A DNA stretch of 64,000 nucleotides from Posidonia oceanica (Eukaryota > Streptophyta > Magnoliopsida > Alismatales > Posidoniaceae), in NCBI GenBank assembly GCA_037176725.1, contig JAZBRS010000075.1:78680001-78744000 (forward strand). The letters are read 5' to 3'. Of the stretch, positions 9,922 to 62,173 are shown piece by piece (positions within the stretch are counted from its first letter, which is position 1; each line of letters opens with the position of its first letter). The notes under the pieces are model-generated. The model made no database searches. It was not told the origin of the DNA and saw only the letters and a list, made by a program, of their open reading frames with translations. The translations under genes and the position numbers were made by a program.

Positions 9922-11518
9922 CTACCATGAATTGAGAGGATAGCGATGGATGCTATCGCTCCATGGATTATCCTGATCCATTGTCGAATCACGGAGTGAT
10001 TTCCAGACAAGGCTGCACACTTTAAATCCAGTACCGAAAGCAAGCATCCACATCCTATCACCCTTCTTGATCCTTCCCTTGGCTTCGAAGTAAGCAAGCT
10101 CGTAGAAAACAAGACTGCTCGACGTGTTCCCGAACCGATGCAACGTCATCCTCGCCGGCTCCGTCACCTCCTCCCCAAGCTTCATCAACCTACCGACCGA
10201 CTCGATCACGGCCTTCCCTCCGGTGTGTATGCACATGTGCTCAAACGCTGTTGTGAAGTCCGGCACGTGTGGTTTCCGGGTCTGTCCGGTGAGCCATGAT
10301 GCCACGTGGTTGTAGGTGTAGATGAGGAGCTGGGGGAGTGGGAGGACATGGATAGCCAGTGTTCTTATGTGTTCCTTGAGACCTTCGCCGGCGACGCGGA
10401 TGAGGTCCTTCTTGAGCGAGACACCGACGTTGCCATCCTCATCCTCCGCCTGTTGTCGGAAAATAGATAACATTAGAGACCAATTATGATGACATATGAT
10501 GATAATAATAATTATCCGATTAATTTGACTTAAAGTAAGCAAGTCATTTAAGATCGAGTTGGATGTGCAGACTTTAATAATTAAGTACCTGAAAGGCGGC
10601 ACAGTAAGACGCATCATCTGCACCACGATGTGTACGTAGAGATCGTATGAGCTCCATCTTTGCTTGTCGACGTTGAGACGTGTCGTTGGTGAGCAGGGAA
10701 GCCGCACAACCAACGCGAAAAATGCAGTTGGTGACAAGCATGGACCGGTCCGCTCCAAAGTACCAATTCAAGCTTATGTTCTCCGTGACAACGACAAGTG
10801 CACACCGGACACGTCTCGAGCTCGACAAGATCTTGGCCGCGAGATCGATCGACATCGCGCCGGACCCGCACCCCATCCCACCGAGATTGTACGTCTTGAC
10901 GGAGGGATGGAAACCGTATCGGTTGACTAGAAGGGAAGAGAGAGACGGGGAAGGAGCGAACGCTCCACAGGTTACGACCACGGTGTCGATGAGGGAGACG
11001 GGCACTTGGGACTTGGCGAGCAGGGCGTCGACGGCGGCGAACATGCCCTCCTGCGCCTCCCGGACGGCGGACGAGTGCTTCGCTTTGTGGTCGGCTTCAA
11101 AGACGAAAGGTGGGGCGTAGGTTTCGTCGCCTAGGCCTGACTTCTTGTAGATCCCCTTCATGAACTCCTCGCTCTCCGTCGAGAATCGGAGCGAGCGACG
11201 GAGGAAGTACTCGCACATCTCCAAGCTGCACCGGCGTTCTTGGGGCGGTCGGAAGCAGGCGTAGTTGAGGAGGAACACACGGCGACGGCGAGTGGAGGTG
11301 TAGAAGGCAATGGAGACGATGAAGCACCATGTGAAGGAGAACACTAGGATTTTGTGGTGTGAGAGGAGGTGAAGGGCATGAGTAGTGCTGGTGAAGTAAG
11401 GTAGGAAGGTGTGGAGTGTTAGGGTGAGGGTTAGAAATGAGATGAAGGAGACTTGCAAGAGCTGGGTAGGAGACAGCCTCAAGAGAAGATGGAAGGGTTT
11501 CATAACCATTGTCATCAC
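9922..11518 (-). CDS. KCS: 3-ketoacyl-CoA synthase (KCS), two exons
   Basis: This is the condensing enzyme of the ER fatty acid elongase. It joins malonyl-CoA to a long-chain acyl-CoA, supplying very-long-chain fatty acids for waxes, suberin or sphingolipids. Exon 1 is 11518-10589 (310 codons); exon 2 is 10449-9922 (175 codons plus stop). The total of 485 residues is normal for the family. Two hydrophobic N-terminal segments (about residues 20-45 and 55-72) match the usual membrane anchors. The FAE1/type III PKS domain follows. The catalytic Cys is in NLGGMGCGSG, the His in CIHTGGKAV and the Asn in RFGNTSSS. Diverged spots are GCGSG instead of the common GCSAG and FRVGCAA instead of FRVGGAA. 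I took the first Met of MMTMVMKPF; the later Mets are also possible. The subgroup is not resolved. It appears intact. Confidence 0.93.
10450..10588 (-). other. KCS intron
   Basis: 139 bp in phase 0 between FQ and AEDEDG. The donor is CAG|GTACTT and the acceptor is CAACAG|GCGGAG. It is much more AT-rich than the flanking exons. Without splicing, the frame stops four codons into the intron. Confidence 0.9.
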
Positions 11519-11629
11519 TACGATGATCAGTGACTACTGACAAGTACTGGTATTTTGAGCTACTTCCTCTCCTTCTTTGTTTTGCTACTACTGGTGTTTG
11601 GGATGGGGCGGTGTGTGTATGTACACGTA

Positions 11630-18730: not shown

Positions 18731-19374
18731 GAAATTTTATGGGTGGGATTCTTATTCGTGGTCCGGAGAGAGAGAAAGAGAGAGAGGGAGAGAGAGAGAG
18801 AACATTAACTATTTTTTGTTTTGCATAAAACCAAATGAATGTGGGAATTGCACACGAGGTATTGAAAATTGGTCCAACTTATTACTGTATCTTTGTTGTT
18901 TTTCAATAAATTTTTGGACGGTTAGGATTTAAACATGTGTTTCAAAATCAATGGTTAAGATTATGGGCCTCACTATACAAAAGTGAGGCCATGCCTTATC
19001 TGAGAATGACTCTCTCTCTCTCTATATAGATATATCTATACTATATTACTAATTGTCACTTTTTACTGATAAAGCAGCTATGCCACGTGGCATTCGCATT
19101 TACAAGTAGTAAATCACTTATGCCAGTTATTTCATTACATAATTAATAATATCATAAATACAATACCCACCACATAAATTATAACTAATTGTTGAACCAC
19201 ATATGCTAACTTTTTAATTACATAATTAATTAAATTATAAATACAATATCCACCACATATGCCAACTATTTGATTGTATTTACACGTAATTAACCACATA
19301 TGCAACTAATCTATAACAAAATGTCATTTAAGCACATATCAATGTCATTTAACCACATCACCAATCAATGTCAT

Positions 19375-20000
19375 ATTGTTGTGTTCTGATCTCTATCCTC
19401 TCAAGTCAACTATTGTTAATTTAATTTTGTATATTACATGGTATTATATTACCTACCAATATTTGATCTAATGGAAGTAGGATATTTGATTTGATTTATT
19501 TACTGTTGTGATGGTTGTCAATAGTTGGTAGTACTATTAGCTTGCTTCATTGACATTATGTAGTAAATGACATTGATTGGTTATGAATGAAAATGCCTAA
19601 ATGACATTGATATGTGCTTAAATTACAACTAATTGTTGAATCACATATGCCAACTTTTTAATTACATAATTAATAAAATCATAAATACAATTTCCACCAC
19701 ATATGCCAATTATTTGATTGTATTTACACGTAATTAACCACATATGCCAACTAATCTATATCAAAATATCATTTAAACACATATTAATGTCATTTAACCA
19801 CATAATGTCAATGAAGCAAGCTAATAATATTACCAAATGTTGACAACCATTACAACAGCAAATAAATCAAATCAAATATCCTACTTCTATTAGATCAAAT
19901 ATTGCTAGGTAATATAATACCATGTAATATACGAAATTAAATTAACAATGGTTGATTTGAGAGGATAGAGATTAGAACACAACAATATGACATTGAGAGC
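19375..20000. repeat. Large inverted repeat inside the Helitron
   Basis: The block 19375-19620 (GATCTCTATCCTCTCAAGTC... to ...GACATTGATATGTGC) recurs inverted at about 19770-20000, and again in the inverted sense at about 21100-21320. Identity is high (roughly 90% by eye). Confidence 0.8.
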
Positions 20001-20154
20001 CTCCATATTTTCCATGAATCGTACAACCTTAATGGTCAAAAAATTGAAGAAAAAAAAAGATTAAAGGGAAGAGAAGAGAACACTATGGCATTGTTAGGAA
20101 ATATAATACCATGTAATATACGAAATTAAATTAACAATGATTTGATATGAGAGG

Positions 20155-20800
20155 ATAGAGATCAGAATCACCTTATTTTCCATGAATCATATAGCCTTAA
20201 TGGCTTAAAAATTGGAAAAAAAGAGAGATTAAAAGGTAGAGAAGAGAATACTGTAGCATTACCGGCACAAAAAAAAATTAGAAGAAAGATGAACGAACCT
20301 GTATAAGGTGCAGGAGAGTGGAGAAAAAAACTGAAGTGATAAAAGAGACAGAGATATGGACGTCAGGAGAGAGTGAGAGAGAGAAAGAGAAAGAGAGAGA
20401 GAGAGAGATTGCTTCAATTGTGGAAAATTTCTGAAATAAGTAGCATTGAATATCCCCTTCCATAACGTAAGGCCTCCTCCTTATTCTTATGGCTACACCT
20501 TATTCTTCTTCTATATCCTCCGCTATGTAAGTACGAGTAATGCTACTATCCACATGTTGAGACATTTGCACCCAATTTCATTTCTGAAAAGCCTCATATT
20601 TGTCTTCCATCTTGTGAAGGTGCTGTAAGAGTTCTCCACGGAGGTAAGCCCTTTTGGACCTCCTCATTCCTGTTAAAGAAAAATTAACAAAAGAATCTAT
20701 AAGAAAAGAACATAATTTAAAACAAAACATACATTGCTTAAAAAATATGTTCCTTTCAATCTACACATTCCTCCCTTGCTCATTACGTTCTTTTGTTTCA
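20155..20800. repeat. ~650-bp direct repeat, copy 1 (copy 2 at 24728-25480)
   Basis: Both begin GAGAGGATAGAGATCAGAA, pass through a GA microsatellite, then ATATCCCCTTCCATAACGTA, and end near TTCCTCCCTTGCTCATTA. The identical small frames they encode (MNIPFHNVRPPPYSYGYTLF...) are not recognised. Copy 2 lies on the other side of the solo LTR, so the tandem structure predates that insertion or was reused by it. Confidence 0.85.
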
Positions 20801-21488
20801 AATCAAATATCCTACTTCCATTAGATCAAACATGTAAATCATTTATGCCAACTATTTCATTACATAATTAATAATATCATTAATACAATACCCACCACAT
20901 AAATTACAACTAATTGTTGAACCACATATGCCAACTTTTTAATTGCATAATTAATAAATCATAAATACGTAATTAACCACATATGCCAACTAATTTATGA
21001 CAAAATGTCATTTAAGCACATATCAATGTCATTTAATCACATCACCAATCAATGTCATTTAAGCACATATCAATGTCATTTAGGCATTTTTATTCATAAC
21101 CAATCAATGTCATTTAAGCACATATCAATGTCATTTAACCACATAATGTCAATGAAGCAAGCTAATAGTACTACCAAATGTTGACAACCATCACAACAAC
21201 AAATAAATCAAATCAAATATCATACTTCCATTAGATCAAATATTGCTAGGTAATATAATACCATGTAATATACGAAATTAAATTAACAATGGTTGACTTG
21301 AGAGGATAGAGATCAGAACACAACAATATGACATTGAGAGCCTCCTTATTTTCCATGAATCGTATAACCTTAATGGTCAAAAAATTGAAAAAAAAAGAGA
21401 TTAAAGGGAAGAGAAGAGAACACTGTGGCATTGCTAGGTAATATAATACCATGTGATATACGAAATTAAATTAACAATGGTTTGACAT

Positions 21489-24400
21489 TGTAGACACCCC
21501 ATTTTGACAGCTTGGACGATTGGTGGATCTTGCTAGAAGCTTGCTTGGATTTCGGGATGGCTAGTCTCTCTCAAACCCACCCTTAAACCTCACCAAACCC
21601 TAAAACCTTCCTAAACCCACCTAAACCCTCACAAAACTCCACCTAAGCCTTCCTAAGCCTTAGCCCACACCTTAACCTAAGCCAAAACACTCAAAACAAC
21701 TCTTAAACCTTCTATGACTCGTTGGACGCAGGCTATAGTAGCGTCCTACGTTGGACGCGCTATGTGTCAGCGTCCAACGAGTCAGGAACAGCCACCGCCT
21801 CCGCCACCTCTGGCTCACCGCTCCTGTCTTCTCCTTCGTCAGCTCACACTTACTACTATATCCCTTCACCGCTCCTGGCCACTTACGCGCCAAGGCCACT
21901 TACTCGGCCTGCTACTGCGTCTCCTCCCCGCCAGTGCGTCTCCTGCTCTCACCACCACCCACTGCAACCGGCTACCAGTGCTCTGCCACCACGACGACTT
22001 TTGCTCCACCTCCCTGATGCCACACTTACTTCTCCTGACACCCACGACCAACTTACACTCCCCCCCAGACAGCCTTTCTCCAGGAGTGTGCCCACAGAAC
22101 CCATCTTCCTTCGCCGGCACCCAAAGGAGAACCCATCACTCCCAAACACCTCCAGCCCAACACAGACCTTCCCATATCCCACGGAAGAGCTTGAGAGGTC
22201 CTCCTAGCCACTCCGAACCTTCCTCCATACGCGAGAGAAGCCACAGCAGCCCCCACTTCCGCGAGCTCGCCGCATTCCGTCCAAGCTCGCTGGCAACCAC
22301 GCACAACTCCCACAAGCTACACGCAGGTAAGTCTCCTTCCTTCGACGCGTCCCTCACCTCCTCCTCATCGTAGCAAAGCATCACAACCAAGGAACATGGC
22401 TCACCGGCCCCTTTAATGGTCGGAGGAGGCGTGGCCGTCGACTGCGCGGAGGAGGAGATGGGTGGAGCAACCCACCCACCCATTTTTGGCACCGAGCACA
22501 TGGATATGCTCGTCGTCATCCACTCTTGCTTCCTAGCTAGTTAGATTTCAATTTTCAATCGTTTTGGCCATTGGCTTTGGCCGGGAAGTTTCCCGACCTG
22601 TTGGACGCACAGCCTGGTGCGTCCAACGTTGGACATGCTCTGTGGCAACGTCCAACATGCATGCAGGTCATTTTATTTATTTTATTTCATTTTGCTTCCA
22701 TGTTGCTATGATTTGGATGCTATTCTCTAGGAGTTTTCATTGCATGCTTTCTTTCATGTCCTATGTTGGACGCAGCTACACACAATGTCCTATACCTCTG
22801 CATGCTTACATATGTTTTAATGCTCGGATTCCGCATTTATTTAAGATGCTTGCTTGATCCATGTTGCATGCCTTGGGTTAGCCCGTTTTCAGTAGCTTGG
22901 ATGCATGTTTAAGTGGTCCATGAGCTTAGTTCTCCTTGCAGTTTGATGTGCATTTTCTCTGTTTTGGACGCAGCTGCACTCTACGTCCTATGTTGGACGC
23001 AGCTGCACACTACGTCCTATATTTCTGCATGTCTACCTGTGGCTTAATGCTTGCATGATGCTTCTACTTCTTATGATTGCTTGATCCACGCATGTGTAGT
23101 TATGCTTAGCCCCCATAGCTACTGTTTCCAAGTTTGCAAAGCTTTCCTTCAGGTTATATGCTAGTTTTTCCATAAGTGTTTGCCTCTCTATGTTGGACGC
23201 AGATGCTGCTTGCGTCCTACATAGGACGCAGGTGGTGCTTGCGTCTTACACCTTGGCTGCATGTTTCCTTATGCATGTGTCTTAAATGCTTTACTTTCAA
23301 TATATTTATTTGATCCATGTGTGCATGCTTAGCCTCCACTTGTTTACAGTAACTTAAATGTATGCCTAAATGTCATTTTATCGCTTTGCATGGAGTTTTG
23401 CTATGTCTCTGTTTGCTCTGTGCTGGACGCAGAATACACTAGTGTCCTATGTTGGACGTTGTGTGTTCTAGCGTCCAACACTCTGCATTGTTTAAATCAT
23501 CTCTATGCATGTGCCATGTTCTCAGATTCCTTTTCTGGCTTATTATATGGACTGCCTAGTATGATCTACATGACTTCTACTGCCATCTTGCATTTGCATC
23601 ATGTTCATACATCCAGCATGCATGTATTTCTTTCAAAAACCAGGCTGAGCTGTTGGATGTAGAGGATCACTGCTTCCAATGTTGGACGTAGGTGATCACT
23701 GCGTCCAACACCCTCTGCTAGTTTAAAATCATTATGATGCTTACAATCGATTTTTGGGCTTTGTGCTTTGATCTTTCAACATGGTTTATCTGCCCATAGC
23801 TCTTTCATTGCATTAAAATGCATGATTTCCAAGTTTGCATGCCTTCCTTGCAGGTTCTTTGTTTTTCTGTGTTGGATGCAAAGAATCACTGCTTCCAACA
23901 TAGGATGCTGGTTAGACCAGTGTCCAACACTTTACAGTTTACTGCACATTGTTTTTAAGCGCCGATTTCGTTTTGGTTGTCGCTTTCCGTATTTTTTTGC
24001 CTCCGGTACATGCCTTGACACCCGTGCATGTTGTCGGACCCTTATTTCCTGTTTTACGCCTTGCATCGCTCGCTTTCCCATGGTTTCTCACCTCGGACTT
24101 GTTTTCCATCGCGTGTCGCTATTCGCATTGCATAGTTTTCTTCGGCGTTTTGATTTCTTGCCTGCATCGCATTTAGGGCAGTGATAATTACTGTCTGGAA
24201 TTCTTACGAATCAGGGCTCACCCGGTTCAAAACACAGGCAGCGCTGCTGAGCACATAGGCTGCACGTTTAATTTCCCATACATGGCATTCAGGCATTTAG
24301 GCACTTAAGCATACATGGCATGACATAGCATTCCTCGCCCCTTGGGCGTACAGTTAAAGGCAATCATTGCCAACAATCCTGCAAATGCGAGCGAGTTTAG

Positions 24401-24721
24401 CCAAAAAAGACCGATTCCTTGAGCGTGTCGGGGGTGCCTAACACCTTCCCCGCGCGTAACAGGAGTCCTTACCCTTTCTTTGGACTCACAATGACCGTTT
24501 TGCCCTCGTCCTTGGCACGAGTCATCTTTTTACATAGCATTGCATTCACTTGCATGTTTTCTATGCTTTCCCCAGTTTTCCTCGTCTTTCCGATAATAGA
24601 CTAGGTGGCGACTCCGTTTTGTCTTATCTTTTGTTTTCCTTCTTCGCGTCGCTATCCATGAAGACCTCTCTCTGTCCGGGCCCTCGCCGATCCATATCTC
24701 CAAAGGGATCAGGCATTCACA
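21489..24721 (+). mobile_element. Solo LTR A (Tat/Ogre-like gypsy), 3233 bp
   Basis: Begins TGTAGACACCCCATTTTGAC and ends ...GGCATTCACA, flanked by a perfect 5-bp TSD GACAT (21484-21488 and 24722-24726). Near its 3' end it has GGGGGTGCCTAACACCTTCCC-type and GGTGGCGACTCC words that I associate with Tat/Ogre LTRs. No gag, pol, PBS or internal region is present, so it is a solo LTR left by LTR-LTR recombination. It carries eight occurrences of a hairpin motif, mostly as doublets, between 21721 and 23929. The ends and middle closely match LTR B (59302-62173). Frames at 21714-22519 are incidental. Confidence 0.88.
22600..23929. repeat. Hairpin-doublet array in solo LTR A
   Basis: Hairpin units of about 29 bp, arms GTTGGACGC/GCGTCCAAC or variants, mostly occur in head-to-tail pairs: 22600-22656, 22764-22792 (single), 22961-23020, 23192-23250, 23422-23480, 23652-23709, 23871-23929. 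One more pair lies apart at 21721-21778. Successive starts in the regular part are 231, 230, 230 and 219 bp apart. Confidence 0.9.
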
Positions 24722-24939
24722 GACATGAGAGGATAGAGATCAGAACCTCCTTATTTTCCATGAATCGTATAGCCTTAATGGTCTAAAATTTGGAAAAAAA
24801 AAGATTAAAAGGTAGAGAAGAGAATACTGTAGCATTACTAGCACAAAAAAGAAAGAAAGAGAGATGGACGAACCTGTATAAGGTGTAGGGGAGTAGAGGA
24901 AAAAAATGAAGAGATAAGAGAAATAGAGATATGGACGTC

Positions 24940-24991
<52 letters not shown>

Positions 24992-26433
24992 ATTAGATGA
25001 TGTGTTACCTGAAGAGGCGGGATCCATACAGTCGTTTCCTGTCAGTGACATCTTCGCCTTCTCCATGCAGTTAGGTGGAAATGTCATTAAGACTACTTTA
25101 ATTGTGGTAAATTTCTGAAATAAGTAGCAATGAATATCCCCTTCCATAACGTAAGGCCTCCTCCTTATTCTTATGGCTACACCTTATTCTTCTTCTATAT
25201 CCTCCGCTATGCAAGTACGAGTAATGCTACTATCCACATGTTGAGACATTTGCATCCAATTTCATTTTTGAAAAGCCTCATATTTGTTTTCCATCTTGTG
25301 AAGGTGCTGTAAGAGTTCTCCACAGAGGTAAGTCCTTTTGGACCTTCTCCTTCCTGTCAAAGAAAAATTAACAAAAGAATCTATAAGAAAAGAACATAAT
25401 TTAAAACGAAACATATACTGCTTAAAAAATATGTTCCTTTCAATCTACACATTCCTCCCTTGCTCATTATGTTTCTTTGTTTTAATATAATTTATTTTGC
25501 TACTAGCTGATGCTTCTGTATTGTCTCCATGACATTGCATTTTTTTTCCTTTATGTTTCTTCCTTTTCATATGTATTATTATTTTATTACTAGCTCATCC
25601 TTTTGTATGTTATCCATGTATTTATTTTTTGGGCATTGCCTTTCTATTCCCCATGCTATAAGTATAAAATCAAAAGAAATGTATAATAAAAAAAACAACT
25701 TGCAGAGCAAAAGAACACACAAGAATCTACATGTATCTTTCGTATAGGTCTTTGCAGGAGATTTGAATGGAACCAATGTTCTCAAATAGATCTCAACTGT
25801 CAGAGCTAGAATCAAGAAATCAACGGTGTGGATTGAGTAGGCTGTAGCAGATGTAATTATGAGCTTTGTGTGTCATATAAAAAACTAGCATCTGCTATCA
25901 TTAGAGGGTCACTTTTGTTGATTTTACTTTCAACTCAAAATCCTATAAAAGAACAAAAAATTTGATATACATTATGCTTCTTTTCCATCTCCATAATTTG
26001 ATCATTAATATAATAAAATATAAGTTTTTTGTTTATAAATTCTTATAAAGTCACTAACAATAGATATTTAACTACCAATAACATATGAAATATGATATCA
26101 ATGTAATAGATTTCTTTCTTAAACAAGATAAGTTCTCTTTGCTTGAGCATATGAATAAATGATGATAATTTTTCTATTAAATAAGAATAAATATAGTCAA
26201 GCAATGATGACAAAAATGATAAGCGACAAATGATATTTAAATAAGAAACATAAATAATAAACTTAATCTTTCAATTACATTATTATACATTATTTAAATA
26301 AAAATTAATTAATTTTCAATATCAAAATTTAAATATAAAGTTAAATTAATTTATTTTATATATGTTACAATACGTGCATCGCACGTGCCAAGTCACTAGT
26401 ATATATATATATATATATGATTGGGTTCTACTA

Positions 26434-33989: not shown

Positions 33990-36808
33990 TCAGATTGACG
34001 AAAAATGCAAAATTTGAAATAAGATAGTTGATAAGTTTCCATAGTGATTTCTAAAGATGACCAAATTTCTATTAAGCCATAAACTCCACAGAATAGCCAA
34101 CACAAGGATATGCCAGCCCAAATGATTAATATTAAATTTTGCAAACTGGATTAACGAAAAAATATCAGAAATGTATGTAATAGACAAACAAGCAGTATTG
34201 TACAAAAAGAAATCCCAAATACTCACAGCTAAAGGGCAGTGTAAAAAGATATGACTATTAGTTTTCAAATTATGACCACAAATCTCACAGTTAAGTAAAC
34301 CAATCCACCCCCTCCGTTCTAGATTTACCCTAGAGAGAGTTTAATCATGCATTACTAGCCATGCAAATATTCTAACTTTTAAAAAAGCAGTAGCTTTCCA
34401 GATGTTACGCTGGAATTTGGAACGAAGGCCACAATTATTTAGGAAGCTATAGTAGCTTTTCACACTAAACTTCCTATGTGAAGTTAAAATCCACTCCACC
34501 AAATCAGCTCCATGAGTTAATCGAATAGAGTCTATTTTATCAATGAAATCATGCAGTTTCAAAGAAGAATGAAAGGCATTAAGAGACTCCAGGTTAACTG
34601 AGAAGATTTCTAACTGTCTTTCACTATAGTTCAAAACCATTTTCTCAACAGAGCAATTTTTTTCCTAGAAATAGAATACAAATATGGCCAAGTATGCTTC
34701 AGAGCAAGGTTGCCTACCCATTTATTCTCCCAGAATATTATTTTTTTACCATCACCCAAAGAGAATGAGGATAACATATTCATAATTGGAAAGCAACACT
34801 TAAGCTCCTACCAAAGAGGGGAGGCCTTGTTGGGGGCCACATTAAGTAGGACACCCATATTATTACTAGCACAGTACCTACTTTTCACTAAACTGGGTCA
34901 TTTTAAGCGCAAGTTACTTGCAAGCAGATTCCAAAGAAGTTTACACTTGAGAGCTAAGCTGAAGTTTCTAATATTGATAATACCCAACCTATCTTGATCC
35001 TTGCTTCGACAGATATTCATCCATCTAGCTAAACAATATCCTGATTGTGTTGAGGCATTAGATTTCCAAAGAAAACGCCATCGAATGCGATCAATTTTCA
35101 ACTCCACTCTTTTGGGTAGATGCAGCATAGACAAGTAATATGTAGAGATAGCTGAAAAGACTGAATTGATTAAGGTGAGCCAACCTCCCAAGGATAGATA
35201 ACTAGTCTTCCAAGTATCCAACTTGGTTGTAATTTTGTCTATCACTAGTGACCAATCACTATATGAGGCTTTTTTAAAATGCAATGGTAGTCCCAAATAT
35301 TCAACAGGTAATGCTGAAGAGGTACAACCCAGAATTGAACAGTACCTAGCCATCCGTGCATCGAAATCCTGATCCCAGTGAGAGAGGACTTGCTAAAGTT
35401 TATTTTAAGGCCCGAACGTGCTTGATAGTAGTAAAGGATCCTTTTGAGATTAACAACACCTTCCTCACCAGGAGTTAGAAAAATAAGGGTATCATCTGCA
35501 TATTGAATGTTTAAAACTTGAGGTCCAGAATGAGGATATTGAATACCTTTGATAAGATTATTTTGCATACCCAGGGCTAGCATTATATTAAGGATATGTG
35601 TTGCTACTATGAATAGAAATGGAGAGAGAGGATCCCCTTGTCTAAGCCCATTGGAGGCTCCATAGAAATCTCTAGGCGATCCATTGACCAAAATAGAGAT
35701 TCTAGTTGATGAGGTGCACATTTTAATCCAGTTCACCCATTTGTTGCCACAGCCCAACCCTATAAGAGAGTTAACAAGGAACTCCCAGTTAACATTGTCA
35801 AATGCTTTTTCAAAATCTAATTTGAGCATGAGCCCAGGGATTTGAGACGAATTCAAAAAATGAAGAGTTTCTTGGGCTACTAGGAAACAGTCACTAATGT
35901 TGCGCTCAGGTAGGAAAGTACACTGAGAGTCATCCAAGATAGTATTAAGAATGGGGCAAAATCTAGTAGCAAGGCATTTAGAAATAATCTTGTAGCTGTT
36001 GTTTAAAAGACTAATGGGCCTATAGTCTTGGATTCTCTCAGCCTTAGACTTTTTTGGAATAAGTGTTATAAAAGTCTGATTTATGCTTTTCAGAGTGTTA
36101 ATATCATTAGCTTGGTACAAGAGCTTGAACATGTCGATAATATCACTCTTTAAATCATCCCAAAATTGATAATAGAAACACAAGCGAAATCCATCTGGTC
36201 CGGGAGATTTCTCCCCAGATAGGGAATCTACACTTGTTTTTATTTCCTCCTCAGAAAATGGTATCACTAGATTTGCAGGTTTAGCAATCTTAATTAGCAG
36301 AAGAATGTCCCAATTCATAGAGACCCCAGAGGTAGCTAGTTTGTTGAACAAGGAGAAGAAAAACTTTTCAATGGCCTTGGCAATGATACCAGGGGAGTCA
36401 GTGTGCATACTATCAACAATAAGACATGATATGGTGTTGATCCTCCTCCTATGGTTTACCATTTTATGAAAAAAGGCAATATTGAGATCCCCCTCTTTAA
36501 GCCACTAGATACGGGATTGTTGTTTCCAATATACTTCAAGATCAAGTAAGATATTATAATGCTCAGCTTTAAGAGCTTGTTTCCTATTCCATTCCTCCAA
36601 AGTAAGGGGAGTTGTCTCAACCTGAATATCCAGGTCCCGTATCATGTTCTCAATTTCTAGCAATTTAGCATTATGGTTGTAGATATCCCGTTTTGGCACT
36701 CTCCTCATTGTCGTAAAACATCATTGCATCATATCATGCTCAGTTCACCTCTAGAAGCCTTCTTCTCAATCCAAGTACTCTCCTTTGAGCCAATTACAAA
36801 TCCAGGGT

Positions 36809-37552
36809 GTTGAACGCACATTTGCGGGCGTCCAGTATTAGATGCTTGAAAACCAGCATTCTACATTGAACATTGGTTATCAAGCGTTCTATGTTGAGCG
36901 CTCCATCAAAACCGTTCTATGACCCGGAACTACTTTTGCCAGGTCAGCCCAATTGGAGTCCATCATTATCTCTTAATTTCAGCAATTTGGGTCCCGATAA
37001 TTCCTTGGCCAAATTTGGCAGGTTGATCGCCTAGGTGTGTTGAACGCTAGTTTCAAAGCGTTCAATGTAGAACGCTAAGTTCCTGGCGTTCTATGAAGTC
37101 CAGTGCTGGCCACAACTTTCTTTATTTGGACGAACTCGAAAACCAAATTATTTCTCTTTTTGGAAGCTCGTTGATCTAAGGGATGGCCAATCATGATTCA
37201 ATCAGTATTTATCCACCTTTAATTGCTAATTATCCCCTCAATTTGACAGCTGCACCTCAGGTGGTCGTTGAACGCTGGGTTTCCAGCGTTCAACGTAGAA
37301 CGCTCAGGTTCCACGCGGTCTACAGCGACAGTTTGCTGAACCAACTTTCCTTTCTTGGACGAAATCCAAAGTTTGAATTCTTGCCTCCTTTAGAGACCTG
37401 TTGACCAGTCAACAGCGCTATCTGGGCCTAATGATTGTTAATCAATCATTAGTGGGGGATTATTCCTTATCCTTGGCAGTTGGAGCTCGAGTGGTTGTTG
37501 AACGCTAGGTTTCTAGCGTTCCATATTAAACACCTGGATATCAGCGTTCAAC
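36809..37552. repeat. Hairpin-doublet array in solo LTR C
   Basis: Hairpins with arms GTTGAACGC/GCGTTCAAC occur at 36809-36863 with an extra pair to 36923, 37039-37094, 37267-37323 and 37497-37552. Starts are 230, 228 and 230 bp apart. Confidence 0.9.
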
Positions 37553-38086
37553 ACTTCTGATTTGGAGATTTTGCTGATCTATCCATTTGACCCATTTTGT
37601 TCTTCCCCTGCTTCTATAAAAGCAAGGGCACCCCAACCTTGAGAGGGGACACGGGAAATTGGGGAATTAAGGACCAGAAAAATCTTGAAGGGGAGAGATT
37701 GGAATTATAGACTAAATTTTTAAGGAGAAACCATAGAAAGGACCCAAGTAGTGAGAGAGTTTTGGAGAAAGCTAGTCTTCTTCTGTCATCGACCACGTCA
37801 TGCCGACATCTTGCATTCCGCAAATACATCATATCAAAAGGGGGTTTTCTTTAGTGTTTTTATTCTGCATTTCATTTCATATATCGTTGTAGCTAGGCAT
37901 TCATACATAATTGCAACCGGAGGGATAAAACCCCTCGGATAAGTATTTTTCTTTCTTTTTTTCAATTCATGTCACTTTTTATTTATCTTGAATCACCTAC
38001 TACACTGTATTAATCTGTATTTTTTTAAACATTATTTTGCAAGGAAAAGAAGAAGAAGAAGAAACTCACCAAGCACGGGCACCATT

Positions 38087-38106
38087 GGACAACGCTGGCG
38101 TTGTCC
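38087..38106. repeat. Palindrome GGACAACGC-TG-GCGTTGTCC
   Basis: Nine-base arms with a 2-base centre near the 3' end of solo LTR C. It is similar in style to, but separate from, the hairpin array. Confidence 0.9.
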
Positions 38107-39280
38107 CAAGGTAGTTGAGCCCACATCGATCAATCTCCCCAAGGCATCTCGAGGGCTGACGAAAGCGAACCTGGAGTGGTGATCACACTGATTTCAATAC
38201 ACGTGGAGTGTTGGGATTGACGAACAAGCAACGGGGATGCCGAGAAAGCAAAGGAGTGGAAAAACATTTGTTCCTCCAAAACCCCATATCCACAATGGTC
38301 AATCCTGCTAGTAGTCAACCATGTCTTTGTAGCTAACTTCACATCTTTCAACTTAAGGGAGAATCTAGTTATTGCATTAGCATCCAAAGAGAATCTAACA
38401 AGGTTATCCTTGATAAAACCAACAAATCCCTCCTTAAGCATCCAAGATCTATAAAATTTAAAAGGATATGGCCCCCATCTAAGAGGCAACGTATCAAGGC
38501 ATATAGGAATATGATCCGAAATTAGTCTGGCCTTTCCACTGCAGATTGCCTTAGGAAATTGAGTTTTCCACCCAAGAGAAATCAAGAATCTATCTAGCTT
38601 AACCAGAGTGGCATTTTCTTGAAAATTTGACCAAGTGTACAGGCAATTATTCGGGGAAAAGTCAATAAGATTGGCAGCGGCAATGAAATTGTTAAAGTTT
38701 GTCGTAATAGGAGAAACAGAGGATCTATTAGAGTGTTCGTGGGTGAATCTAATGATATTAAAGTCACCCCCAAGAACCCAGTGATGGCCAACAATAGACT
38801 GTAGGTGTCTTAATTCGTCTAAAATGTTACACTTGAGGTTTGCTGCACAGGGCCCATATATCTCAGTCAGCCACCACTCAAAATTATCTAAGAGATTTCG
38901 AAATCTTAAGGAGAGAGAAAAAGTATCCCTGAAAGTATTCAACTTGGAGCAGATGGTAACATTCCATCCAATAAGAATACCACCAGAAGCATCCTGAGAG
39001 GGCAAAAACTCCCATTGGGTTAAACGACCCCCTCCAATGGATCGAAGGAGTATTGAAGAGAAAGAGTCTAGTTTAGTTTCACATAATGTTAGAAAATCAC
39101 ACTTATATCAGTGCACAACATTCTTCACTTCCCTACGCTCACAGCTACTGCCAAGACCTCTAATGTTCCATAATCATAAATAAAAGGAAGATTATAATCG
39201 TAGAGCCCCCAAGAGCTCTACATATTCCGAGGACTCTTCCTAGTTAATTGGAGGTAATGATTGCTGCCTACATATATCAT

Positions 39281-43799: not shown

Positions 43800-44100
43800 G
43801 TTTTTGTTTGGATTCAGAATAAGTCTTGGAATAAACTTGGAATATGAATTACTATTCGTTCGGTTGTGTAAAAATTGAAATAAATTCAAACTAGTAATTC
43901 TTATTCTAATTTACTTGTTCCAGAATAGCTATTTTGGGAGAAAAGTAGAATAAAGTTATTCTGATACATGTATGTGTACAGTATGTTTATTTAAAAAAAA
44001 AAATAATACATATACAATATAATGTATATATACTTTAAATTAAATATATATCATTTTCTACTTATTGTATTATTCCTATTTTCTTATTCTATATCAAGAG
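43800..44100 (+). mobile_element. AT-rich MITE-like copy, related to 52770-53250
   Basis: Shares CAGAATAAG(T)-TTGGAATAAAC, TGTGTAAAAAT(T/C)GAAATAAA, TTATTCTGATACATGTATGT and TACTTTAAATTA with the minus strand of 52770-53250. It is probably the left part of the same element, in opposite orientation. Confidence 0.65.
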
Positions 44101-44580
44101 GGATTTAGTCTTGTTCATAACTTGAAGACAAATTTGTCGTATACTTGTTTGTTGCACTCTGGTGTTGGACAAAACCAGCACATGGCAGCACTTATAAGTC
44201 AAACACCACGACGCATATTTGAACATCTGTTTTAGAAAATTGTCATCTTGTTGCACATTGTTTTCCCTTGAATATTTTGCATAGAAGGGACATTAAATGA
44301 TTGTTTCAACCACATGGAAACTAGAGAAATTTAATGAAATCCGAAAATCAAACATGTGGACCAAATGGTCCCCCCATGGCAGCAAGCTAGTTTTCAAGGA
44401 GCATTGATCAGGTGAGGTCAGTGCTCTCTACAACAGTTAAAAATCCAATATCTCAATCGTTGATCATAACAGTACTTAACGTAAAAAGAAACAAAATATT
44501 GTTGTAATTTTAATTTTTTTGCAATCCAATGGTCAAGATCATGTGCTCGCGAATGAGGCCTGCGAACTCCAACCGTAATT

Positions 44581-47500: not shown

Positions 47501-47830
47501 TGTAATCTTAATACTTTCCTTTTGATACTTTGATACTCTGATACTTCGATACATTGGTTCCTCGTGGTTGGGCTTGTGGTTGGGCATGACAGGTTGGATA
47601 GTGGCCAATTGTTTTTCTTTTGGCCGTTGCTTTTACTTTGCCTAGATACTTTGGCCCTGTCATTTTGAGGTTGGGCTTTTCTCTGGCCTTTTGGCTTGAA
47701 TATGTGGCTTTTTTGTTCCTATCCTTGGCTTGGGTTCTTGTAATTTTGTAATTTGTACCTCTTACTTGGTTATGGTACTCATAGTTAAGTTTTTATCAAT
47801 AGAATTTAAACCGTTTACAAAAAAAAAAAA
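44581..47830 (+). mobile_element. 5'-truncated L1-type LINE, 3250 bp
   Basis: It is flanked by a 14-bp TSD C(T/A)CCAACCGTAATT (44567-44580 and 47831-47844) and ends in a poly(A) tail after TTTAAACCGTTTAC. The empty site is preserved near 50832-50846. It belongs to the same broad family as the full-length LINE at 33540-42632, but starts only in the endonuclease domain. Confidence 0.92.
44660..47500 (+). pseudogene. LINE ORF2 remnant, catalytic core deleted
   Basis: The endonuclease part has WWQIGIYGPC and LGGDFNISR, then SDHISICL with stops between. The frame 45304-45735 has RSRIQWLKKGDLNTTFFHK. The RT start has LIPKKSHVEKVQDFRPISLLN (45773-46180). After LKLDFEKA near 46210 the sequence jumps to the region aligning with the RT thumb/connection (LGIINLSNFNLALK). 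So about 260 codons, including the YADD site, are missing relative to the other LINE. A zf-RVT-like part follows at 46582-47070 (FTVKSCYNFLNDGGLRSRL, CAICGC). Non-functional. Confidence 0.88.
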
Positions 47831-48197
47831 CACCAACCGTAATTGATAATTTTTTAGTTTACTAGTGTCTTCACCCAATTGCTTTTCAAATATAACGTAT
47901 ATTTATTATTTATTATTTCGTGTTGAGTTTTAGCTTCAAATAAGTTTGACGAGCTGTCAAAACCACTCTGAAAGGAACTTTCAACTAAATCGGAAATTTA
48001 ATGATATTCTAACTACTTAACTCATTGGACTCCAAAACCACTCTGAAAGGAACTTTCAACTATATCGGTATAAAGTAGAAGCACAATATCCCAACCATTT
48101 CTTATCACTGGAATTGAATAGTGATGTTAATTTAATCTTGTCATGAAAGAAGATCTTACTTGTTTTGTAATTAAGACGAGGAGAAGGTTGAAGAGAC

Positions 48198-48967: not shown

Positions 48968-50369
48968 CTATTATTGTCCTATTTGTATTGTCATGTTTGT
49001 GTAGAATTTTTATTTTTTATTCTAGGTGTCTTAACTATTAAAATAACTATCATCTGTTTGATTATGGCACCTCCTATGAAGATATTGGAGCTTCTTATTG
49101 TGCCCCACAAGATGTTGGTCCATCATATCGTGGGTCACCCATGTCACGCCCGCTTATTCTCAGAACCATGTAAATAAGGCACATGATCTAAACTCTACAC
49201 TTAATGATGAGATAAGAATATCAATACATTATAAATTTGGTATTCCATCAATGGATAGTTATTAACACTTGCATGAACTCCATATGTATAATGCAAGCTT
49301 TATATGTCTATCATTATTTCCACATCAATATTTGATATATGCTAATAACCACATCAATTCTCATGTGAAAAATCCATTCACCAAAATTTTATTTAACTCT
49401 AATACTAACCGAGTGATTGTATCAACACATCATTGAGTTCATTTATCCAGCATTACATGTTTGACAAAAACATATAATTTGACATAGAATATGATCACAT
49501 AAAACATCACTTTCACATATACATAGTTATATTACAATTTACATAAAATCCATAATGGGGGCCTTAAGACAAAAATAAATAAAGACAACATCTAATCCTT
49601 CATATCTTAGTCGACCATCATTTACGTCATCTGGAAAGATTGTGTATGATGTCATCAGAATGAGTAAGACATGAACTCAGTGTGTAACAAGATCATTTGA
49701 CAAGAGAAAACCATTGACACCAACTTAAGATCATTGATTAAAGTTCAAATCAAGAGAAAACCAACTTAAGATAAATGAATTGCTTTGTTTTAAGATAAAT
49801 TGACACTACAAAATATTCTTATCTCATTTTACTTAAGAAGACCTCTAAACATCCTTTGCCGCATAATTAGGCATTGGAACATTGTCTTTGCCTAAAAGAC
49901 TGCGGCATCTACCACATGGGGCATTCCTTAACGGCAACAAACAAGGAAGAAGAAGCGGGGGAATGTACTAGAGATGTCAGCTCCAAGTATAGCAGTGACA
50001 GGGTTCAGAAGCCAACCGCTCTTATCCCTGAAGCACCAACTTTATGCCCTAATTATCCTCCAATGTGCCTTGCTCCGGACAACTGTTGGTGGAGACCGCG
50101 ACTGCTGGTGGTGGAGGTCGCAGCAGCTGGTGGTGGTGGTTGAGGCAATCATGGGTGGTGGTGGTGGTGGAGGCGACAGCAACTTCTAGTAGTGGAAGAG
50201 GAGGCGATAAAAGAAGTGGGTTTCTGGATGTAGCGGTGAAAGAAGTGGGTTTCTGGTGGTAATGCTGGCAGTGGAAGAAGTAACGATCGTGGTAGAAGTG
50301 GTGGTAAAAGAAATAGATTTCTGTTAGTAACAGTGGCAGTAGAAGAAATGACGATCGTGGTGGAAGGAC
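48968..50369. other. Spacer between the duplicated segments
   Basis: 49142 begins TGTCACGCCCGCTTATTC, a usual LTR start, and the following 0.7 kb has LTR-like AT-rich sequence, but no end or TSD is found. From about 50080 to 50345 there is a G/T-rich minisatellite (GGTGGTGG, and AAAGAAGTGGGTTTCTGG twice). Confidence 0.4.
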
Positions 50370-51250
50370 TTAGTCTTTTTCATAACTTGAAGACAAATTT
50401 GTTGTATACTTGTTTGTTGCACTCTGGTGTTGGACAAAACCAGCACATGGCAGCACTTACGAGTCAAACACCACGACGCATATTTGAACATCTGTTTTAG
50501 AAAATTGTCGTCTTGTTGCACATTGTTTTCCCTTGAATATTTTGCATAGAAGGGACATTAAATGATTGTTTCAACCACATGGGAACTAGAGAAATTTAAT
50601 GAAATCCGAAAATCAAACATGTGGACCAAATGGTCCCCCCATGGCAGCAAGCTAGTTTTCAAGGAGCATTGATCAGGTGAGGTCAGTGCTCTCTACAACA
50701 GTTAAAAATCCAATATCTCAATCGTTGATCATAACAGTACTTAACGTAACAAGAAACAAAATATTGTTGTAATTTTAAATTTTTTGCAATCCAACGGTCA
50801 AGATCAGGTGCTCGCGAATGTGACCTGCGAACACCAACCGTAATTGATAATTTTTTAGTTTACTAGTGTCTTCACCCAATTGCTTTTCAAATATAACGTA
50901 TATTTATTATTTATTATTTCGCGTTGAGTTTTAGCTTCAAATAAGTTTGACGAGCTGTCAAAACCACTCTGAAAGGAACTTTCAACTAAATCGGAAATTT
51001 AATGATATTCTAACTACTTAACTCATTGGACTCCAAAACCACTCTGAAAGGAACTTTCAACTATATCGGTATAAAGTAGAAGCACACTGTCCCAACCATT
51101 TCTTATCACTGAAATTGAATAGTGATGTTAATTTAATCTTGTCATGAAAGAAGATCTTACTTGTTTTGTAATTTAGACGAGGAGAAGGCTGAAGAGACCA
51201 CTCATGCATAAACATGTCATGGAGGCTACAAAAAGAGACTCTGGGTTTTA
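50370..51250. repeat. Duplicated segment, right copy (empty sites kept)
   Basis: Continuous 881-bp copy of the sequence split in 44105-48967. It holds single copies of both target sites, CACCAACCGTAATT and GAAGAGAC. Confidence 0.92.
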
Positions 51251-59301: not shown

Positions 59302-62173
59302 TGTGAACGCTTGATCCCGGAGATCCGGACCGGCGAGGGCTAGGACAGAAAGAGGTCTTCACGGATAGCGACGCGAAGAAGGAAAACAAAAAGATAAAGC
59401 AAAACGGAGTCGCTACCTAGTCTATTTAATCGAGAGACGAGAAAAACCGAGGGAAATGCAAGAAAACATACAAATGAATGCAATGCTATGCAAAATGATT
59501 GACTCATGCCAAGGATGAAGGCAAAACGGTCATTGCAGGTCCAAAGAAAGGGTAAGGACTCCTTTTACGTACGGGGAAGGTGTTAGACACCCCCGACACG
59601 CCTGAGGAATCGGTCTTTCAAGGCTAAACTCGCTCGCATTTGCAGGATTGTTGGCAATGCTTACCTATAACTGTATGCCCAGGGGGCGAGGGATGCTATG
59701 TCTTGCTATGAATGCTTTACTTGCTCAAATTGCCTAAGTGCCGTGTATGGGAATTAAACGTGCGGTCTATGTGCTCAGCAGCGCTGCCAGTGTTCCGAAC
59801 CAGACGAGCCCTAGTTCGTAAGAACTTCAGACAGTAAGTATCACTACCTTAAATGCGATGCAGGCGAGAAATCAAAACGTCGAAGAAAACCATGCAATGC
59901 AAATAGCGACATGCGATGGAAAACAAGTCTGAGGCGGAAAACCACGGGAAAGCGGGCGATGCAAGGTGTAAAACAGGAAATAGGGGTCCGACAGCATGCA
60001 TGGGTGTCAAGGCATGTACCGAAGGCAACAAAATGTGGAAAGCGACAACGAAAACAAGATCGGTGCATAAAAACAGTATACAGCCAACTGTAAGGTGTTG
60101 GACGCTGGACTGACCAGCGTCCTATGTTGGATGCTGGAACAGATAGCGTCCAACACAGAAAAATGAAGAACCTGCAAGGAAGGCATGCAAATTTGGAAAA
60201 CATGCGTTTTAATGCAAGGAAAAGGCTATGCGCAGATAAACCATGCTAAAAGATCAAAGCACAAAGTTCAGAAATCAAATGCAAGCATCAAAACGATTTT
60301 AAACTGGCAGATGGTGTTAGACGCTGGGAACATCAGCGTCCAACGTTGGACGCTATGAACCTCAGTGTCCAACAATTGAGCCTAGGTTTTAAAATAAATG
60401 CATGCATGCTGAATGTATGAACATGATGTAAATGCAATATGGTAGTAGAAGACATGCAGATCATGCCAGACAAGCAAGATAACAAACCAGAAAAGATTTA
60501 AAAGCATGGCACAGGCATAAAGCTGGCTTGAAACAAAGCAGAGTGTTGGACGCTGGAATACACAGCGTCCAACATAGGATGCTAGAACATTCTGCGTCCA
60601 ACATAGAACAAACAGAGACATAAAAGCTGCTACAAAATGATGGAGAAAACATTATGTAAACCTGCAAATGATTGAAATAAAATCTAGATATCAACATGCA
60701 TGCATGGATCAAAGAAGTATCTTAAATAAAAGCAACATCTGAGCATTAAAATGCAGGCATGCATGCAGGAGTGTAGGACGCTAGATGCACCAGTGTCCAA
60801 CATAGGACGCTGGAAGCTCTAGCGTCCTACACCCAAGTAGGAGATACTTAAATATGGAAAATGAAACCAAGCCAAGATTAATGCGAGATTTAGAGCATGG
60901 CATGTAAAAGCATGAAGGGAAGCATGCAAGATGATCCACATAAATATAGCATTCAAACCAAAGTAGCATAGAAGCAAAATAAAATAAAATAAATAAAAGA
61001 ACCAGCATGGGTGTTGGACGCTGCCTCAGGGCATGTCCAACGTTGGACGCACCAGCTTGTGCGTCCAACAGGTCGGGAAACTTCCCGGCCAGAATCGATG
61101 CTCAAATCAATTCAAAATGGAAATCTAACTAGCTAGTAAGCATAAGCAAGCATCAACGATCATGGACATGCATTCAAAGCTAGAAATGGGCGCGTGGATT
61201 GGTCCACCCACCTCCTCCCTTTTGCCACCGGCGTTCATGGCATTTCCGGCCAACTGAGGGGCCGGAAAGCCATGAAGCCTGGCTGTAAAGCTTGGCTACG
61301 ACGGGGAGGAGGCGAGGGACACGCCGAGGGAAAGAAACTTACCTGTGTGCGGCCTGTAGGAGTTGTGCGCGGCTGCCAGCGAGCTTGGACGGACTGCGGC
61401 GAGCTCGCGGAGAGGGGGAGGCTGTTGTGGGCTCTCTCGCTTGTGGAGGAGGATTCAGAGTGGCAAGAGGAGTCTCTCAGGTTCTTCCCCGGGCTCTTGG
61501 GTGGCTGCTGGTGTGTGGAGAAGGTTGGGAGGTTGATGGGTTCTCCTTTCTTCTCTCGGCGGCGAAAAAAGGATGAAATGCCACACTAAGGAGGAAGAAA
61601 GGGTGGTCTGGGGTGTATGCTGGTTGTGGCTGTCAGGAGGAGTAAGTGTGGGATGTCAGGAAGTGGAGAGAAAGTCATGGGTGGCAGGGCACAGGCGGCC
61701 GATGGTAGTGGGTGGTGGTGAGACCGGAAAACGCGCCAGTGGAGGAAGGGACGCGGTGGTAGGCCGAGTAAGTGGCCATGGCGCGTAATGGGTGGCCAGG
61801 AGCGGTGAGAGGACGTGGTAGTAAGTGCAGGCTGACGGAGGAGAGGACGGGAGTGGCAGGCCAGAGGTGGCTGAGGCGGTGGTTGTCCCGACTCGTTGGA
61901 CGCTGGCACAGAGCACATTCAACGTAGGACGCTGCCATAGCTTGCGTTCAACGAGTCTAGGAGGTTAAAAGGTTGTTTTGGGGTGTTTTGGCTTAGGTTA
62001 GGTGTGGGCTAAGGCTTAGGTGGAGTTTTTGTGAGGGTTTAGGTGGGTTTAGGAAGGTTTTGGGGTTTGGTGAGATTTTAGGGTGGGTTTGAGAGAGATT
62101 AGCCATCCCGAAATCCAAACGAGCTTCCAACAAGGTCCACCAACGTCCAAGTTGTCAAAGTGGAGTGTCTACA
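59302..62173 (-). mobile_element. Solo LTR B (Tat/Ogre-like gypsy), 2872 bp
   Basis: On the minus strand it begins TGTAGACACTCCACTTTGAC at 62173 and ends ...AAGCGTTCACA at 59302, with a perfect 5-bp TSD GTAGA (59297-59301 and 62174-62178). It is the same family as solo LTR A in opposite orientation. It has no internal region. It separates the Copia RT at its catalytic motif. Hairpin doublets lie at 60097-61069 and 61895-61952. Confidence 0.9.
60097..61069. repeat. Hairpin-doublet array in solo LTR B
   Basis: Doublets at 60097-60154, 60316-60373, 60545-60602, 60773-60830 and 61013-61069 are spaced 219, 229, 228 and 240 bp. A sixth lies apart at 61895-61952, the same relative distance (about 880 bp) as the isolated doublet in LTR A. 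Confidence 0.92.

Follow-up and report, generated by a model that had tools for sequence, protein, structure and literature searches.

Paired palindromes with a period of about 229 bp in three solo LTRs of Posidonia oceanica

Three solo LTRs in a window from Posidonia oceanica (the window is the whole stretch of DNA that was analysed, 64,000 nucleotides) carry palindromes in head-to-tail pairs that are repeated along the LTR at an almost constant distance. This raises the question of how such an array arose and which role, if any, it has for the element.

Three solo LTRs and their insertion sites

The LTRs, here called A, B and C, have exact TG...CA ends, in full TGTAGA...CACA, and perfect 5-bp target duplications within the 64-kb window:

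21489-24721, plus strand: solo LTR A, 3233 bp, TGTAGACACC...TTCACA, target duplication GACAT at 21484-21488 and 24722-24726
59302-62173, minus strand: solo LTR B, 2872 bp, family of A, target duplication TCTAC/TCTAC
36678-38294, plus strand: solo LTR C, 1617 bp, by its sequence a distant relative of A and B, target duplication ATGGT/ATGGT

In BLAST, A and B align over 1547 bp (81.5% identity) and over 1292 bp (78.3%), so the two belong to one family and are 78-82% identical. The layouts of A and B, which the original prediction treated as separate observations, thus constitute one observation and not two. C had been described as mostly different in sequence, which is correct for most of its length but not for two segments: 17 of its first 21 bp are identical in A, which none of 300 shuffles equalled, and 39 bp of spacer match B at 82% (BLAST E 3e-4, hairpins masked). 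The same first 21 bp match B only weakly (15/21; 22 of 300 shuffles as good). Local alignment of positions 20-100 of B with C was not equalled in any of 300 shuffles, and the corresponding stretch of A gave a weaker match (11/300). With the hairpins masked, A and C had no BLAST match better than E 0.19, and the match between their 3' ends is not beyond chance (175 of 300 shuffles). Judged from these alignments, C is a distant relative of A and B.

An uninterrupted paralogous site corresponding to the target of A is found at about 20061-20254, and A is inserted in one copy of a local repeat. The repeats around A are complex (19109-21488 and 24742-25389); similarity reaches 95% between direct copies, which lie at several distances, and 97% between inverted ones. 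According to Pfam, which was run on 10 of the 43 listed ORFs of the window, the insertion of B splits a copia RVT_2 (reverse-transcriptase) domain, C is flanked by an endonuclease-type ORF on one side and an RT ORF on the other, and the other content of the window includes copia and LINE-type fragments. The ORFs on either side of C probably belong to one LINE. A 3-ketoacyl-CoA synthase-like gene (FAE1_CUT1_RppA) is located at 9922-11533 on the minus strand in two overlapping ORF pieces. With this gene and the copia and LINE-type fragments, the window has the appearance of plant DNA. Two direct repeats of 300 bp, one at 47829-48128 and 50830-51129 (99% identical, 3.0 kb apart) and one at 44098-44397 and 50363-50662 (97% identical, 6.3 kb apart), would be either recent duplications or element ends.

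Form, number and layout of the palindromes

The palindrome is 28-29 bp long and has the half-sites GTWGRACGC and GCGTYCWAC, in which position 3 is T or A. It is found 37 times in the three LTRs (15 in A, 12 in B and 10 in C), nearly always in head-to-tail pairs. A consensus scan of the 64 kb gave 40 hairpins (80 rows when both strands are read), 37 of them in the LTRs and three weak ones outside. In 50 Markov shuffles of the LTRs the count averaged 0.64 and never exceeded 3, the consensus being derived from the very copies counted. A sequence-blind hairpin scan placed 31 of the 63 hairpins of the window within the LTRs, which make up 12% of it, compared with a mean of 2.5 and a maximum of 7 in 20 shuffles of the LTRs; these 31 include hairpins other than the palindrome, such as the ones with centres at 22275 and 22468. 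The shuffles of both scans rule out a chance origin of the hairpins. Together with the exact target duplications, the 37 copies bear out the originally predicted head-to-tail pairs of hairpins in three solo LTRs.

When all 37 hairpins are aligned, the commonest form in A and B is GTTGGACGC-N11-GCGTCCAAC, and C has mostly GTTGAACGC-N10-GCGTTCAAC. Pairs are present in C as first stated, but its arms are GTTGAACGC/GCGTTCAAC and not those given for all three LTRs, and its loops are mostly of 10 nt. The difference between the arms is symmetric, GGACGC/GCGTCC in A and B against GAACGC/GCGTTC in most C copies. The best copy is the one in C at 37267. The consensus scan located the copies as follows:

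21721-21778, plus strand: A pair 1, upstream and off period
22600-22656, plus strand: A pair 2
22765-22793, plus strand: A unit 3, the one hairpin left of a pair (also from the unit alignment)
22963-23020, plus strand: A pair 4
23192-23249, plus strand: A pair 5
23422-23479, plus strand: A pair 6
23652-23709, plus strand: A pair 7
23871-23928, plus strand: A pair 8
61895-61952, minus strand: B pair 1, upstream and off period
61013-61069, minus strand: B pair 2
60773-60830, minus strand: B pair 5, numbered from its BLAST match to A pair 5 (A pair 4 in the global alignment)
60545-60602, minus strand: B pair 6
60316-60373, minus strand: B pair 7
60097-60154, minus strand: B pair 8
36809-36920, plus strand: C unit 1, four degraded hairpins
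37039-37094, plus strand: C pair 2
37267-37323, plus strand: C pair 3, its first hairpin with a perfect 12-bp stem and a 4-nt loop
37497-37552, plus strand: C pair 4

The pairs are head-to-tail duplicates because the loops within a pair are alike in direct orientation (similarity 0.509 against a null of 0.387 in 18 pairs; p printed as 0.000, 3000 shuffles). In inverted orientation the similarity in the 18 pairs is 0.341 against a null of 0.340. The pair as one large inverted repeat was rejected since its loops are not inverted copies, though several pairs fold in that way in silico.

The distances between consecutive pairs are 879, 136, 227, 229, 230, 230 and 219 bp in A, where the start of the third pair is derived from its one surviving hairpin, 883, 239, 228, 229 and 219 bp in B and 230, 228 and 230 bp in C. 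Upstream pair 1 aside, A has six pairs and one remnant, and B has five pairs. The near-constant spacing of the original prediction applies to the core pairs, which are about 229 bp apart in A, B and C, but not to pair 1 of A and B or to pair 2 of A. C does keep the pair layout in its spacing, as had been claimed, but its first unit consists of four degraded hairpins.

The units align as tandem duplicates (67.6% identity over 259 bp for the C units, 77.9% over 104 bp for A units 3 and 4), which shows that a unit of about 229 bp was duplicated in tandem to build up the array. On these alignments the rhythm is the product of old tandem duplication, and the period in C may be inherited from an ancestor common with A and B. 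A nucleosome-scale spacing device is without support; the 229 bp or so are the length of the tandemly duplicated unit. The core steps fall at 219, 227-230 and 239 bp, roughly a helical turn apart, and because only two independent steps depart clearly from 229 bp no helical phasing is claimed.

Conservation and pairing of the arms

Within the array the arms are preferentially conserved, a result that is based on three solo LTRs in one window, two of which (A and B) are of the same family. The identity among units is 0.72 (A), 0.85 (B) and 0.75 (C) for arms against 0.47, 0.45 and 0.51 for spacers, in forced unit alignments without shuffle control that omit the last unit of each LTR, which has no following pair, and retain units A2, which is short, and A3, which has one hairpin; both lower the mean of A. 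When the arrays of A and B are compared, 164 of 188 aligned arm positions are identical (87%), as are 510 of 684 in spacers (75%) and 72 of 117 in loops (62%). The corresponding figures for the upstream pair are 32/36 in arms and 17/22 in loops. The global alignment places B pair 5 opposite A pair 4 and leaves A pair 5 gapped, whereas BLAST matches it to A pair 5, and the orthology of this unit is uncertain.

Outside the array A and B are 76.3% identical in the 5' part and 86.6% in the 3' tail, which thus equals the arms. This tail, the last 790 bp or so of A (23934-24721) and its counterpart in B, holds a short inverted repeat, GGGGGTGCCTAACACCTTCCCC in A. It presumably resembles LTRs of the Tat/Ogre type.

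CpG dinucleotides are far more frequent in arms than in spacers, with 18 per 234 nt against 7 per 969 nt in A, 17 per 180 nt against 5 per 701 nt in B and 17 per 180 nt against 11 per 479 nt in C. CpG-rich sequence in methylated DNA is expected to decay fastest. That these arms have been kept nevertheless suggests selection while the lineage was active and the LTRs had yet to insert, and we infer that such selection held the arms.

The array could also be a neutral by-product of an ancestral palindromic minisatellite that was multiplied by tandem duplication, by template switching in reverse transcription and by short gene-conversion tracts, with conversion homogenising the hairpins. This agrees with units that are tandem duplicates, with their unequal number in A and B and with neighbouring loops that share lineage-specific pieces, such as ATCACT in A7a, A7b and A8a and the loop ends TTCCA or TTCCCA in B5a, B6b, B7b and B8a. 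However, homogenisation would have to hit the 9-nt arms yet largely skip the enclosed loop and the adjoining spacer, the arms that should decay fastest if methylated are the best-kept part of the A-B array, and the motif is retained in the distant C. We regard a purely neutral origin as unlikely. Tandem duplication, named in the original prediction as the alternative, did make the period but does not on its own account for arms that are alike while the spacers have decayed.

Another explanation is that the hairpins act as RNA, either as stems formed by the LTR transcript (with U3 located at the 3' end of genomic RNA) for packaging, stability or reverse transcription, or as a source of small RNAs, or both. 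The predicted folds of the 18 pairs are mostly stable (15/18 with z <= -2) and several form one 58-nt hairpin, but low folding z-scores are expected of any palindrome. With all 37 copies pooled, pairing and covariation are above all 500 shuffles in a control that ignores family structure, and this signal is in large part due to the difference between families at position 5, which is A-T in the C family and G-C in A and B. Pairing at position 5 is in excess across families (33/37, null 22.4, above all 5000 shuffles) but not within them (p 1.0) and is thus a family trait. Global tests gave p 0.003 for the arms and p 0.002 for inner positions 10-13, again with controls that ignore family structure; when shuffling was done within families, a weak signal was left at the inner positions (p 0.07).

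Arm pairing is no better than predicted from the family consensus (264/333, null 261.9, p 0.34), and all 12 base-pair positions with G-T allowed gave 351/444 (p 0.16) in the within-family shuffle. Position 3 is unpaired in 15 of the 37 hairpins, where T or A is tolerated without compensation, and the unpaired state is common to both copies in A1a/B1a, A6a/B6a and A8b/B8b. Among 333 arm cells compared with the family consensus, 65 deviate on one side and nine on both (5.1 expected if independent), four of the nine being complementary. One-sided changes that give G-T pairs by C to T number 19, and the strand-mirror changes that give A-C mismatches by G to A number 18, so that the former are not in excess; this is a weak test as many are probably decay after insertion.

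Covariation within families is seen at position 10 (A-T/T-A, p 0.013) and at position 7 (p 0.018), in each case without correction for the 13 positions, and speaks for an RNA role. At position 10, both sides differ in five of 12 orthologous A-B hairpins, and no hairpin has a one-sided difference; the five cases are not independent, as two belong to the unit whose orthology is uncertain and adjacent A hairpins have loop ends in common. A permutation pooled over 12 positions gave p 0.068. Palindrome arrays in maize Sirevirus LTRs are reported, in sources available in part, to attract small RNAs as hotspots (PMC10760457, PMC5311732); the likeness lies in palindromes in the LTR cis-region with strong predicted secondary structure, while the maize consensus, CACCGGACNNNGTCCGGTG, is different. 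The arms studied here keep their primary sequence and not pairing alone, and Rfam gave no match at the gathering threshold in the 64-kb window. A role as RNA appears rather unlikely to us. Pairing is not clearly kept hairpin by hairpin, which favours, though not decisively, a dyad-symmetric protein site over a selected RNA stem, and in our reading the palindrome is a site with dyad symmetry whose changes are a trait of the family.

A candidate regulatory array and comparable systems

On balance, it is probable that the array consists of multi-copy palindromic cis-regulatory sites bound by a dimeric protein that would drive or de-repress the LTR promoter. The protein-binding array is the best fit among the four roles first suggested (structured RNA, protein-binding array, small-RNA source and nucleosome spacing). 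The palindromes, with half-site centres about 19-20 bp apart, roughly two helical turns, would be recognised by a dimeric protein that binds DNA sequence-specifically and is most likely a transcription factor of the host. The sites were doubled head to tail and then multiplied with the unit of about 229 bp, units being gained and lost over time, and selection in the active lineage would keep the sites while the spacers decay freely. GTWGG resembles, as we assume, MYB sites. Two features are of interest for the promoter and splice context:

37615-37621, plus strand: TATAAAA, the sole TATAWAW match in C, putative promoter element
22325-22332, plus strand: AGGTAAGT in A, splice-donor-like, kept in B at 61337-61344, putative splice site

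The array of C ends at 37552, about 60 bp upstream of the TATA-like box. A and B have no match to TATAWAW, and the order of array and promoter is not fixed there, which speaks against the protein-site reading. The main array of A and B is located downstream of AGGTAAGT, and CAGGT acceptor-like sites are found among its spacers. With these donor-like and acceptor-like sites a leader intron containing the array is possible; the array may be in such an intron or may precede a promoter situated closer to the 3' end. Other observations against binding by a protein are that the arms are not uniquely conserved, with the A/B tail equally so, that some stems extend inward beyond what a dimer site needs (12 bp with the 4-nt loop in C) and that some covariation signals exist (positions 10 and 7 and the pooled tests).

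Palindromic motifs are known from Sirevirus (Ty1/copia) LTRs, with 3-14 copies in each 3' LTR, no fewer than 8 in an element and clustering upstream of the TATA box; the 13 consensus sequences are 10-20 nt long and 12 of them have a CGG-CCG core (Bousios et al. 2010, PMC2829016, available in part). As far as that source goes, the LTRs studied here are similar in having many dyad-symmetric, CpG-associated motifs, with 10-15 per LTR and all three LTRs at a comparable copy number (PMC2829016). The array of C lies upstream of TATAAAA, and A and B have no TATAWAW match with which to compare; the Sirevirus motifs form CpG islands, and by the counts given above CpG is concentrated in the arms here (PMC2829016). 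They differ in the core, GRACGC/GCGTYC instead of CGG-CCG in the forms of both A/B and C, in the dyad of 28-29 bp, in the paired sites, in the period of about 229 bp and in the ends TGTAGA...CACA (PMC2829016). The motif is not assigned to Sirevirus because the CGG-CCG core is lacking and A, B and C are known from solo LTRs alone; further characters of Sirevirus elements are a copia-type pol, multiple polypurine tracts and a large gag. The best reading by analogy is that the array would work like the palindromic motifs of Sirevirus LTRs, though its core is another one, its dyad is wider, its sites are paired and its period is long. In the Retand lineage (Ty3/gypsy Tat) the LTRs of surveyed recently active elements are 315-1194 bp long according to a source available in part (PMC11963269), a length that A, B and C all exceed.

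The heat-responsive element of ONSEN is similar as an LTR cis-element that has grown by duplication of a proto-element and is bound by an oligomeric factor, binding that would be expected here also (PMC5059998, available in part). Compared by consensus alone, ONSEN differs in having a compact cluster of adjacent nGAAn for heat-shock factor trimers (PMC5059998).

VANDAL transposons contain motifs in tandem arrays to which VANC proteins bind, removing silencing marks (PMC5735166, PMC10398659, both available in part). The array could accordingly be the target of a VANC-like factor encoded by the element; factor and target would then have co-evolved, and the motifs of A/B and C would differ for that reason. 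Motif variants that are specific to a family and amplified in non-coding tandem repeats fit the VANDAL pattern, here with two families only (A/B and C) (PMC5735166, PMC10398659). CpG-bearing sites amid CpG-poor spacers also speak for such a factor. On the other hand, VANDALs are DNA transposons with motifs of 8-9 nt that by inspection lack dyad symmetry (PMC5735166, PMC10398659), A, B and C are solo LTRs without internal genes, and the factor is hypothetical. We consider a factor of this kind very unlikely.

The pattern of the pair junction was also searched for in other genomes. One stretch was found in viral contigs (L001), where the last 601 of 5300 bases hold one short palindrome and no array, and five in prokaryote genome contigs (L002-L006, with bacterial record titles). 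All six were treated as chance matches and not as relatives; a rough hand estimate for the prokaryote scan is about 13 chance matches. No description of the GTWGRACGC palindrome or of a paired-palindrome period of about 229 bp was met among the titles and abstract openings of the literature searched, which does not imply absence from print.

Similar arrays are known in another plant retrotransposon group, and the core, the wider dyad, the paired sites and the long period look new here. The other core, the paired form, the long period and the other LTR ends suggest that lineages repeatedly reach, or share, arrays of dyad-symmetric sites. As a far-reaching and quite improbable extension, paired-palindrome arrays in a class of plant LTRs might be docking platforms for a dimeric factor. 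This factor would co-evolve with them, would possibly be encoded by the element and would keep the LTR active or free of methylation; its changes in specificity would be recorded in the G/A difference that separates A/B from C and in the A/T switch that distinguishes A from B at position 10. If true, retrotransposons would have a counterpart to the VANDAL/VANC system. The symmetric difference in motif between A/B and C is a handle for finding the binding factor, and the two versions are ready-made probes.
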